From positions 558,001 through 622,000 of the forward strand of contig CANLUT010000002.1 in the NCBI GenBank assembly GCA_947494335.1: a stretch of DNA of 64,000 nt, in the 5' to 3' direction. Made by a program: the position numbers and the translations under genes. Under the pieces are notes generated by a model. That model saw only the letters and a program-made list of their open reading frames with translations, was not told the DNA's origin and did no database searches. Source of the stretch: Oligoflexales bacterium. GTDB lineage: Bacteria > Bdellovibrionota_B > Oligoflexia > Oligoflexales > RGVZ01. Position 1 is the first letter of the stretch; every line of letters starts with the position of its first letter. Of the stretch, positions 59,534 through 64,000 are shown one piece after another.

Positions 59534-59820
59534 CCATGATTGACGCCAAAAATATGTCCGACGAAGGTTTAATCGCACATTATGTGATTGAGCTTCTTGG
59601 AGCCGGACATTTCCTGTCCCATGATGACTACGCGCGGCTTGGAAAGTGGCGTGAACTGTCTTCGTCAACTGATGAGCTGCTTCTCGTCTTAGATGAAGTC
59701 CTGTCCGCAAAAATTATGAAATCTCGTCAAAAGGGCAAAAAAGTTTTTTCTCTCTCCTCGATCAGCAAAACTATGGAAAAAAGGCTGAGTGAGCGAAAAA
59801 TGCTCGTTCAAGGGGCTTAA
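59530..59820 (+). CDS. Small protein of unknown function
   Basis: A 96-residue, soluble protein with a positively charged C-terminal half (MKSRQKGKKVFSLSSISKTMEKRL). It starts at GTG 59530 (GTGA overlap) or ATG 59536. It lies in an operon between the receiver-like gene and the ferredoxin gene. No family recognised. Confidence 0.5.
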   Translation: MTMIDAKNMSDEGLIAHYVIELLGAGHFLSHDDYARLGKWRELSSSTDELLLVLDEVLSAKIMKSRQKGKKVFSLSSISKTMEKRLSERKMLVQGA

Positions 59821-59821
59821 C

Positions 59822-60217
59822 ATGTCAAAAACTACTGATGTCGATATGGACAAGATTGTCGAAAGATTGAAAATAGACCGCATCAAGCGGCATATTTTTT
59901 TATGTACTGGAGACAAATGTTGTTCGGCAGAGACTGGCATGAAAACCTGGGAGTTCCTTAAAAAACGAACTAAGGATGCTGATGCCGTTGAGGCTGGAGT
60001 TTACCGAACAAAGGTTGGTTGTCTTCGCATTTGCCGCGAAGGTCCTATAGCTCTCGTTTACCCCGAAGGGGTTTGGTACAAAAATGTCACGGTTGACGCA
60101 TGCGAGAAAATCATCGATCAGCATTTGATCTGTGGACAAATTGTGGAAGAACTAAAAATCGCCGAGCATTCATTACATCTGGATTTATCGTCAGGTGGCC
60201 AATGGGACACCCCCTAG
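59822..60217 (+). CDS. Thioredoxin-like [2Fe-2S] ferredoxin
   Basis: A 131-residue protein. The cluster Cys residues lie in FLCTGDKCC and VGCLRICREGPIALVYPEGVWY, the pattern of the thioredoxin-fold 2Fe-2S ferredoxins. It is probably an electron carrier. ATG 59822 (AAGGGG upstream) is used rather than the in-frame 59789. It closes a three-gene operon and precedes the rhodopsin gene by about 200 bases. Confidence 0.85.
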   Translation: MSKTTDVDMDKIVERLKIDRIKRHIFLCTGDKCCSAETGMKTWEFLKKRTKDADAVEAGVYRTKVGCLRICREGPIALVYPEGVWYKNVTVDACEKIIDQHLICGQIVEELKIAEHSLHLDLSSGGQWDTP

Positions 60218-60424: not shown

Positions 60425-61186
60425 ATGACGGAACTAACAGCAGCGCAGTTTTCGCTCGTTTACAACATGTTTTCTTTAACCATTGCTAGTATGGGGGCAG
60501 CATTCATCTTCTTCCTAGCATCTAGGTCGCAAGTCGCGCCGAAATACCGTGGTGCGCTTACAGTGTCATCGTTGGTGGTGGCGATTGCTTGCTATCACTA
60601 TTTCCGTATCTTCAATAGCTGGAACGAAGCGTTTACCTTAAGCGGCGCAGTCTACACGCCATCTGGGAAACCATTCAACGATGCTTACCGCTATGTTGAT
60701 TGGCTTTTGACAGTTCCTCTACTTCTTGTTGAACTCGTTGCAGTATTGGCTTTGCCAAAAAATCAGCGCGAAGGCCTCTTTGGTAAGCTAGCTATCGCGG
60801 CTTTCCTGATGATTGCACTTGGTTACCCTGGTGAAGTCGCTACAGATAACACAACTCGCGCCATTTGGGGCACACTGTCTTCGATCCCATTCGCATACAT
60901 CCTAATGATCCTTTGGGGCAAATTGGGTGCAGCAATCGAAAGCCAGCCAGGCGAGGCTAAAGTCTACTTGACTAATATCCGCCTACTACTTCTTTTGACT
61001 TGGGGCTTCTACCCAATCACCTACATGCTTCCGATGTTCGGCATTGACCCACAATCCTCGGTTGTTGGTATTCAGGTTGGATATGCTGTCGCTGACGTGC
61101 TTGCAAAAGCCTTCTACGGCGTTATGATCTACTGGATCGCAAGAGCTAAGTCAGAAAACGAAGGTTTCGCTGACGCTGCCCACTAA
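60425..61186 (+). CDS. Xanthorhodopsin-type proton-pumping rhodopsin
   Basis: A 253-residue, seven-helix protein. The proton-pump residues are Asp92, Thr96 and Glu103 (RYVDWLLTVPLLLVE), with His58 as likely partner of Asp92, and the retinal Lys228 lies in DVLAKAF. Leu100 (the position 105 equivalent) fits green-light tuning. YHYFRIFNSW and TTRAIWGTLSSIPFAYIL strongly resemble Gloeobacter rhodopsin. Gly149 lies at the fenestration position, which in xanthorhodopsin lets a carotenoid antenna bind. It was aligned from memory. ATG 60425 is used, with GGAG upstream. Carotenoid and retinal genes lie directly downstream on the opposite strand. Confidence 0.93.
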   Translation: MTELTAAQFSLVYNMFSLTIASMGAAFIFFLASRSQVAPKYRGALTVSSLVVAIACYHYFRIFNSWNEAFTLSGAVYTPSGKPFNDAYRYVDWLLTVPLLLVELVAVLALPKNQREGLFGKLAIAAFLMIALGYPGEVATDNTTRAIWGTLSSIPFAYILMILWGKLGAAIESQPGEAKVYLTNIRLLLLLTWGFYPITYMLPMFGIDPQSSVVGIQVGYAVADVLAKAFYGVMIYWIARAKSENEGFADAAH

Positions 61187-61226: not shown

Positions 61227-63254
61227 TTAAACCGCCTTCGCTGAAAAGCGAGGCGGTTTTTTCTTCAGAAATCTTTTCATGACCGGCGCATGAGACGCAG
61301 TTAAAGCTCCGATCCCTAAGAAAACGATCTTCCAAATTTGTTGACTACCGCCTGAGCGCGCATAGAGCCAGGCGAGCAGAAGAATCCCTACAAGGCTCAA
61401 GGTCGTGTAGGGGAGACTTTTTAACAGGTATTGCTTAGATGACCAGCCTTTTGCAGCTCGTTGGACCGCAATAGAATCCCAGCCGTGCCAGAATGCGAAG
61501 AAACAAAAAAACCCAGGCAGTAGAGGTAGCGCCAAGGTTGAAGCGGCGAGCGCCAATGTAGCGGGCATTCCGATCACAGACCTACCAAGAGTCTTACGCT
61601 CATATCGATCAAAAATCGCGGACACAAACAGTGCTGCAACGAAAACAAGTACGCCGCATGCGCGCGCGGCCTCCAAGGTGATTCCCTCGATTGAAAGCGA
61701 ATCACCAAGAATTAACTGAATAATCGAATTGGCCTCCTGCCAATGGACTAGAACACCAAAGGTTGCGGCAAAAAAACCCCATACCCAAGCTAACACGCGG
61801 CTCCAAGTGGCATTCTTCGAGCTTTTTATGGCACGAATCCAGTTTGCCTCGCCGAAATGATCTGCAGATTGGAACAGGAAAAATGCTAACGCCATCGGGG
61901 GAAATACAAACCAAGTGAGAATAAACAGTGCTATGGAGCCAAGATAAACACCATAAAACTGATAGGGTCTTTGAGCTGTGGGCTCAAGGAGATGATCTAC
62001 GCTGCCGTGCCCAATTCCAGTCGTTAACAGACCTATGATGGGAATCGTCCATCCGGCCAAACCACCAAGTGTCCAATGAAGAACGAGACTGGCCGACGCC
62101 GCAAATATAAACGGATACAAAACTAAAAGACTACGTAAAAATGGAGCCCAAGGCAGACCAAAAAATATTCTAATTTCTTCAGTAAATTTCGATTTTTCAT
62201 CAAGGAATAAGAGGATTTTTGAGGGACTATTCGCAGAGAAAAGAATGCAAAATACTTTCGAGATCATTTCTCCATTTGTTCTGATAATTCGCAGAAGAAG
62301 TGCGTCATAAACCTGAAAGCGAAAATGTCCGTAGGACGTGGTCGCTAAACCAGTCAAATGCCGAAGGTTTCTCTGGAAAGAGTAGCCTGTGCTTGCTTTG
62401 ACCATACCAGCAGCACTACCAATGACCTGGATAACTGAACTAGAGTCAGACCCTGGGAATTTCGGCTCCGCATTGAGAGTCATGGGAATAGCACCTGATT
62501 CTACCTTGAGGATTTGGAAGTCTGGTAAGCAAAGCTTGCTAGAAATATATTCTCGAAGTATTGACTCACACTTTTCCAATGAGATCCTGTTGGCTGCAAA
62601 CACCGTAAATTCGACCAAAGCGCGACGTCGATCAAACGGTAAAACATACACAAAGCGAACTTCGCCGCGTTGTTCAAGCCTAAAATCCATCAAGTCCACT
62701 ATTTGCGGATCAAAGTAATCCCGCTCTGTTTCAAGTTCAAAACCGAGGAAATACTGTAATAATTCGGACTTTTCGACAGTCACAGAATTATAGATACGCT
62801 TGGCTGAAAACGTCTGGCCAGACGCGGTCGTGACGACGGCTATCCTCTCTGCGTTGACCTCCTCGGGTCGCTCTAGAATCTCGGTGACAGAATCTTTGAG
62901 TTTTTGAAATCTTATATCGTTTTCGAGTCTTTGCTTGATTTTGATTAGGAGGCGGTCCCCGGGAATTCTCTCGTAGTAGTAATCACCAAAGTTACAGATA
63001 ATTGGCCGACCATCTGTCGAAGTTATCCGAAATTTCTCCCAGCGGTTTTCGATACAATCTGAATAACGATGGGGAGTGGTTGTTTTAAGGCGCCATGAGG
63101 CAAATGTCTTGGATGAAAGCGACTCAGGGTCTGGATCGATGATCGCAACTCGAAGATCTTTTGACGGGTCATCTGCAAGAATATCGGCTTGCATCAGACC
63201 CGCTAACCCACCACCAACGATTATGACGTCGAAATCTGTCAAATTGGAGACCAT
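61227..63254 (-). CDS. Fusion of lycopene beta-cyclase (CrtY) and beta-carotene 15,15'-dioxygenase (Blh)
   Basis: About 675 residues in two parts. Residues 1-380 are CrtY: FAD site VIIVGGGLAG (10-19), QYFLGFELE (167-175), FVYVLPF, LVEFTVF, IPMT (256-259) and GSAAGMVKASTGYSF (279-293), then the typical C-terminal LFLDEKSKFTEEIR. Residues 385-668 are a Brp/Blh membrane dioxygenase with His-containing GHGSVDH (415-421), SADHFGE (463-469), FWHGWDS (588-594) and SHAP. One protein thus would cyclise lycopene to beta-carotene and cleave it to retinal. I know crtY and blh as separate genes in flavobacteria, not fused. ATG 63254 (GGGAGG upstream) is used; it overlaps the glycosyltransferase gene by 16 bases. 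Confidence 0.9.
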   Translation of the reverse strand: MVSNLTDFDVIIVGGGLAGLMQADILADDPSKDLRVAIIDPDPESLSSKTFASWRLKTTTPHRYSDCIENRWEKFRITSTDGRPIICNFGDYYYERIPGDRLLIKIKQRLENDIRFQKLKDSVTEILERPEEVNAERIAVVTTASGQTFSAKRIYNSVTVEKSELLQYFLGFELETERDYFDPQIVDLMDFRLEQRGEVRFVYVLPFDRRRALVEFTVFAANRISLEKCESILREYISSKLCLPDFQILKVESGAIPMTLNAEPKFPGSDSSSVIQVIGSAAGMVKASTGYSFQRNLRHLTGLATTSYGHFRFQVYDALLLRIIRTNGEMISKVFCILFSANSPSKILLFLDEKSKFTEEIRIFFGLPWAPFLRSLLVLYPFIFAASASLVLHWTLGGLAGWTIPIIGLLTTGIGHGSVDHLLEPTAQRPYQFYGVYLGSIALFILTWFVFPPMALAFFLFQSADHFGEANWIRAIKSSKNATWSRVLAWVWGFFAATFGVLVHWQEANSIIQLILGDSLSIEGITLEAARACGVLVFVAALFVSAIFDRYERKTLGRSVIGMPATLALAASTLALPLLPGFFCFFAFWHGWDSIAVQRAAKGWSSKQYLLKSLPYTTLSLVGILLLAWLYARSGGSQQIWKIVFLGIGALTASHAPVMKRFLKKKPPRFSAKAV
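61229..61259. terminator. Terminator between rhodopsin and the CrtY-Blh gene, inside the latter's 3' end
   Basis: AAACCGCCTTCGCT (61229-61242) pairs with AGCGAGGCGGTTT (61247-61259) with one bulged T and a GAAA loop, followed by TTTTTTC. The stem overlaps the last codons and stop of the convergent CrtY-Blh gene. Confidence 0.8.
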
Positions 63255-64000
63255 TTTATCAGCCTCCCTTTCCACTCATAGCGACCACTCTGACTGGTCC
63301 TTAGGGCCTTGTAAGCAGCGATGTCCAATAGCAGTAAACTGAGCGGGTGCAGCAGTAGATCACGAAGTGGCATCATAAAACATTTAGCCACTAAAACCCT
63401 GCTCAAAGCCAACAAACAAAGTGAAATAAAGGCCAACTCGGGTCGAAAAAAATAACCCCAAATTGGAAATAGAAAAACAAAATTAATAAATCCGATAACG
63501 CATCTAAAAACCGACGGTGTACCACCACCGATCGCCACTAGATTTTTCGAAAATCCAGCCAAGGTAGCCCGCCAATCGGGGTACATCGATACCCGAATGT
63601 GACTCGCTGAGAGAACTGGCTGAAGACCACGACCTGTGACTCGGTGAATCTGACGCGCCAGTTCGACGTCCTCTAACGGGGTCGAACCAAGACCTCGGTG
63701 ACCGCCGCTTTTACAATAGTCCCTCTTGAAGATGGCGACCCATTGCCCATTTGCCATCTGCATCGATTGCAAGGGTAAGCGCCACGAGCAAAACAAGGGT
63801 AGCGACATCATTAATGGAAGATGCATAATCCATGGTATCAGTAAACGCTCACGCAAGCCTTGGCACGACTGTGCTGGTAAAGCCGATAACCCGGACATTA
63901 GCTCGCGCGCCCGTGGCTGCATCAAGAGATCTACGGTACAACGAACAGCGCTGGGCGAGGGTCGCACATCGGCGTCGCAGAAAATTAAAATATCTCCATT
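63239..64000 (-). CDS. GT2-family glycosyltransferase, carotenoid type (5' part outside window)
   Basis: At least 253 residues; the frame stays open to the window end. The first visible residues hold the DxD motif ILIFCDADVRP. GTG 63967 is therefore not the true start. Several hydrophobic helices lie at the C-terminus (FINFVFLFPIWGYFF), followed by YEWKGRLI, a motif seen in CrtQ/CruC/HpnB-like membrane GT2 enzymes. It is co-transcribed with crtY-blh. CruC glycosylates chlorobactene in green sulfur bacteria, so a glycosylated carotenoid is a fair guess here. Confidence 0.8.
   Translation of the reverse strand, partial: NGDILIFCDADVRPSPSAVRCTVDLLMQPRARELMSGLSALPAQSCQGLRERLLIPWIMHLPLMMSLPLFCSWRLPLQSMQMANGQWVAIFKRDYCKSGGHRGLGSTPLEDVELARQIHRVTGRGLQPVLSASHIRVSMYPDWRATLAGFSKNLVAIGGGTPSVFRCVIGFINFVFLFPIWGYFFRPELAFISLCLLALSRVLVAKCFMMPLRDLLLHPLSLLLLDIAAYKALRTSQSGRYEWKGRLIKWSPI

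Follow-up and report, generated by a model that had tools for sequence, protein, structure and literature searches.

The last two steps to retinal in rhodopsin gene clusters are usually encoded by separate crtY and blh genes, which specify a lycopene cyclase and a Brp/Blh dioxygenase (TIGR03753/PF15461) as two polypeptides. Replacing His21, His78, His188, or His192 with alanine in Blh of the uncultured marine bacterium 66A03 leaves less than 5% activity, according to data of Kim et al. 2009 as quoted in a review (PMC9227343). A Blh fusion is on record in the apusomonad Thecamonas trahens, where a quadruple CrtI-CrtB-CrtYc/d-Blh protein has been reported (PMC10016063). In the xanthorhodopsin system, represented by the Salinibacter protein (3ddl) and by Gloeobacter rhodopsin (6nwd), the rhodopsin is accompanied by a salinixanthin antenna, and a Trp at the antenna-site Gly of Gloeobacter rhodopsin stops carotenoid binding.

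We analyzed a 64,000-nucleotide stretch of Oligoflexales DNA (the window) in which a cyclase of the FAD-dependent CrtY type and Blh are encoded in one reading frame. Like the Thecamonas protein, the window protein has Blh as a C-terminal domain joined to a lycopene cyclase. The Thecamonas chain, however, comes from a eukaryote, has four domains including earlier carotenoid enzymes, and uses the unrelated membrane CrtYc/d cyclase, whereas no CrtI, CrtB, or CrtYc/d domain was found in the window protein, in which only PF05834 and PF15461 reach their cut-offs. The initial annotation had taken the known cases to be adjacent separate genes, which is correct for the usual state but does not account for the Thecamonas fusion. 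The separate genes provide the same two enzymes, but as two chains, and the standalone Blh proteins examined keep an HxxRH motif. Relative to Blh of 66A03, the fusion passes the profile cut-off and has equivalents of His21, His78, and His188, but it carries Ser at the position of His192, has Asp in place of the preceding Arg, and is joined to CrtY. The likeness to the xanthorhodopsin system lies in the antenna-site Gly of the neighboring rhodopsin and in the ketolase, hydratase, glycosyltransferase, and acyltransferase genes of the cluster; in contrast to that system, the window pigment is predicted from genes, and the cyclase is fused to Blh. A literature search that reached few subscription papers found no description of an FAD-type CrtY joined to Blh, and this new domain architecture with its unusual active-site change appears to be undescribed in the literature searched.

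Results

The fusion gene crtY-blh occupies positions 61227-63254 of the minus strand and encodes 675 amino acids from an ATG at 63254, with a frame that runs uninterrupted to the stop at 61227. An alternative GTG at 63275, 21 bases upstream, would yield a protein of 682 amino acids. The ATG is likely the true start, because in a related gene (L023) the corresponding ATG is immediately preceded by an in-frame TGA. Pfam assigns PF05834 (171 bits, cut-off 23.4) to residues 16-308 and PF15461 (112.4 bits, cut-off 28) to residues 415-667, both in the numbering of the 682-residue protein that starts at the GTG. The CrtY-type half (62123-63254, minus strand) comprises residues 1 to ~377 of the 675-residue chain, and the Brp/Blh half (61227-62120, minus strand; residues ~379-675) is a hydrophobic multihelix domain, as judged from PF15461, TIGR03753, and hydropathy. 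Standalone cyclases from other phyla align as far as fusion residue 376-391, and the cyclase half is thus whole. Since the Blh half has its first hydrophobic segment from residue ~370-375 onward, the two halves abut without a linker. One continuous CrtY and Blh frame with the bounds 61227-63254 and no linker of note had been claimed initially, and these three points stand: the frame is open, both domains are full-length, the start is supported by the L023 stop codon, and the arrangement recurs in relatives. A sequence search of solved structures returned no relative, and AlphaFold models were of low confidence (pLDDT 42 for the whole fusion and 52 for the Blh half). Within the last fusion codons, at 61230-61263, an inverted repeat with a T-run behind it (AACCGCCT...AGGCGGTTTTTT) can be read by eye. 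This element resembles a terminator for the convergent rhodopsin gene, and the C-terminal tail of the fusion would be encoded by the same bases.

The fusion is present in six genomes from two families of the same order of uncultured bacteria. Five copies are full-length, with 47-63% identity to the window copy: relatives in the same family (L021-L023, Oligoflexales/Pseudobacteriovorax metagenome-assembled genomes) show 62-63% identity, and a genome of the second family (G027, locus L030) shows 47%. The copy in G023 (L031) is truncated at a contig end. The six cyclase halves form one clade with 100/100 support, which indicates a single origin of the fusion in the sampled genomes. dN/dS values (NG86, three closest relatives) are ~0.13-0.17 for the CrtY half and 0.11-0.16 for the Blh half; both halves are therefore under purifying selection. 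In loci with separate genes (L051, L052, and L057), crtY comes first and shares 4-11 bases with the start of blh, and fusion would thus be a short step.

A Blh domain exceeded the cut-off in 7 of 58 genomes of the phylum, namely in the six fusions and in a 278-residue standalone protein (G036). A PF15461 search of 387 genomes from another large phylum gave 15 proteins over the cut-off, in open frames of at most 443 amino acids, and none was a fusion; 400 genomes from the phylum that has the nearest cyclases likewise contained no independent fusion. Viral contigs and phages contained no match to the fusion, a viral search with a standalone Blh query gave no match either, and plasmid records contained standalone cyclases only. 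A second fusion origin was absent from several hundred genomes of other phyla, a sample in which Bacteroidota and Rhodothermota were not deliberately included. One candidate from the phylum of the nearest cyclases, an 814-residue frame in G838, was rejected, as it appears to be a chance open frame running across an upstream glycosyltransferase in GC-rich DNA.

We next consider the cyclase half. The FAD motif GGGLAG (63198-63215, minus strand) begins at residue 14, and a VEFT motif with Glu215 is encoded at 62604-62615 (minus strand). We take the first Glu of the FLEET/VExT motif to be the catalytic Glu of lycopene cyclases. Gly14-Gly16, Leu17, Gly19, and Glu215 are invariant across the fusion clade. 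The fusion does not reach the NCBIfam cut-offs of TIGR01789 (equivalog; 54 versus 215.2 bits) or TIGR01790 (subfamily; 103.8 versus 209.5 bits). A standalone relative in the nearest CrtY group (L007) likewise falls short, which indicates that the curated models do not cover this cyclase branch. In our tree the closest neighbors of the fused branch are cyclases from G117's phylum and one Bacteroidota cyclase, and the CrtY of the order itself falls in a different branch. This is most simply explained if a foreign-type cyclase joined to blh came into the order together with or for the rhodopsins.

The Blh half passes both family profiles (TIGR03753 at 121.7 bits, cut-off 95.25). Assigning its histidines to 66A03 numbering by motif order and spacing, we find His416 in GHGSVDH (61992-62012), His466 in SADHFGE (61848-61868), and His590 in FWHGWDS (61473-61493), all on the minus strand, at the positions of His21, His78, and His188. 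The fourth catalytic histidine is replaced by Ser594, preceded by Asp593, where Arg-His is usual. FWHGWDS is thus not an intact motif, and the initial view that both parts keep their key motifs has to be corrected in this respect. The change is consistent: HxxDS occurs in all six fusion copies, versus HxxRH in 15 standalone Blh proteins from other phyla. The three other histidines, a fifth histidine, and many neighboring residues are invariant across the fusions. We infer that Asp593 serves as a metal ligand in place of the missing histidine: an Asp at i+3 would lie on the same helix face and could substitute for a His at i+4. The standalone Blh-like protein of G036 (C106:14673-15437, L034) has HAIPQ in place of HxxRH, is encoded in a genome without rhodopsin, and perhaps has a different carotenoid-cleaving function.

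The fusion gene is the last in a minus-strand run of crtE-crtI-crtB followed by cruF-acyltransferase-glycosyltransferase-crtY-blh, with a plus-strand crtW inserted between crtB and cruF; most of the cluster lies just past the window edge. The glycosyltransferase (family 2, HpnB/CruG-like; 63239-64000, minus strand) continues past the window, and its last 16 bases are shared with the start of the fusion gene. Judged from the gene set and with the Rhodothermus/Salinibacter pathway as comparison (PMC5822342), the ketolase, 1'-hydratase, glycosyltransferase, and acyltransferase would fit a salinixanthin-like keto-carotenoid glycoside ester. Since such a pigment would be made beside the retinal module, the operon appears to provide both chromophores of the pump. 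Outside the fusion we found neither a PF15461 protein nor a clear lycopene cyclase in the window genome, and a search for RPE65-type cleavage enzymes there was negative. The two genomes of the second family, G023 and G027, also have an ordinary CrtY (TIGR01789 at 367 bits versus a cut-off of 215 in G027), which in G023 belongs to a complete crtY-crtE-crtI-crtB cluster located on a different contig. As the fused cyclase is redundant there for carotenoids, it is best explained by retinal supply, and its coexistence with an ordinary crtY points to a dedicated retinal module.

A predicted xanthorhodopsin-type proton pump is encoded at 60425-61186 on the plus strand, convergent with the fusion gene and 40 bases from it, which confirms the rhodopsin noted earlier opposite the fusion. 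It aligns at 292 bits to Salinibacter xanthorhodopsin and has Asp91, Thr95, and Glu102 of a proton pump and Lys227 for retinal. The carotenoid-antenna Gly is found in WGTLSSIPF (WGTVSTIPF in the G178 region of Gloeobacter rhodopsin). All six fusion genomes contain a rhodopsin, which adjoins the fusion in every flank read. The rhodopsin of the second family is proteorhodopsin-like, shares 33-34% identity with that of the window, and is encoded immediately upstream of the fusion, on its strand. Rhodopsin genes occur without a detectable Blh in four genomes of the phylum (G038, G048, G050, and G052); an outside source of retinal is thus possible, and these bacteria may use it or a retinal-forming enzyme of another kind. 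Just upstream of the window rhodopsin (59789-60217, plus strand) lies a gene for a small protein with weak similarity, below the Pfam cut-off, to thioredoxin-like 2Fe-2S ferredoxin.

Discussion

Taken together, the sequence comparisons make it probable that the fusion is a bifunctional, membrane-associated enzyme with an altered metal site, which converts lycopene to retinal for the neighboring rhodopsin. Both enzyme activities are inferred. The N-terminal FAD-dependent cyclase would act at the membrane surface and form β-carotene from lycopene, and the adjoining multihelix Blh half would cleave β-carotene and so supply the product of the adjacent rhodopsin gene with retinal. The main effect of the fusion may be to tie retinal supply to the cyclase, with equal dose and the same membrane site. 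In the window organism, some β- or γ-carotene would also have to leave the enzyme for the keto-carotenoid branch. The case for retinal formation is indirect, from the adjacent rhodopsin and from the failure to find another cleavage enzyme. A more specific proposal, which we consider less likely than not, is that the fusion makes retinal from lycopene in one chain with the fourth iron-binding histidine of Blh swapped for a carboxylate (HxxxH to HxxD); Blh-type carotenoid cleavage would then have a new kind of metal site, linked to the fusion.

Several observations count against a bifunctional enzyme and would fit a protein in which only the cyclase is active. The His192 equivalent is absent from every fusion copy, and the corresponding alanine mutant is nearly inactive (<5%); the Blh-like protein of G036 lacks the same histidine in a genome without rhodopsin; and rhodopsin-bearing relatives without any Blh exist in the phylum. 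The Blh half could then be an anchor or substrate handler that has lost its dioxygenase activity, or could cleave another carotenoid or bond, with retinal coming from outside. We regard this as unlikely. The Blh half is conserved as strongly as the cyclase half, including its remaining histidines, and the fusion module tracks rhodopsin in every genome that has it. Moreover, G023 and G027 already have a normal CrtY and would gain little from anchoring a second cyclase.

An equally improbable reading takes bifunctionality further, with β-carotene handed on by the cyclase straight to the Blh site and scarcely released, so that the route from lycopene to retinal would be closed. The missing linker would suit such channeling, as would the separate normal CrtY of G023 and G027, which leaves the fused cyclase free to be dedicated. 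In the window genome, however, the only cyclase found is the fused one, and the clustered crtW, cruF, glycosyltransferase, and acyltransferase genes need a cyclized product. Strict channeling is thus unlikely in the window organism, as the same operon would also make the keto-carotenoid, and a tunnel finds no structural support in the low-confidence AlphaFold models. Strict channeling is possible in G023 and G027, where the second CrtY exists. Finally, an assembly or frame error merging two neighboring genes, to which the overlapping crtY stop and blh ATG common elsewhere (L051, L052, and L057) might lend credence, can be dismissed, because genomes assembled independently of one another share the junction, even where the protein is only 47% identical, all copies belong to a single clade, and dN/dS is well below 1.

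If both halves of the enzyme are active, the conversion of lycopene to retinal needs only one gene, which would be a compact part for providing cells with rhodopsins or producing vitamin A. It would also offer a natural system in which to ask whether a water-insoluble substrate is channeled when a cyclase is fused to a membrane cleavage enzyme. The consistent change from His to Ser, together with the new Asp, poses a sharp question about the poorly known metal site of Blh. The pairing of the module with two rhodopsin types, and its occurrence beside a normal crtY in two genomes, suggests a way of supplying retinal independently of pigment synthesis. As a separate observation, one fusion-bearing relative (G006, contig 2; L142, 8696-9331) encodes a second, shortened rhodopsin paralogue of 211 amino acids beside a second cruF-like gene; a middle stretch of the protein is missing and a pump acidic residue is altered, with the retinal-binding Lys kept.
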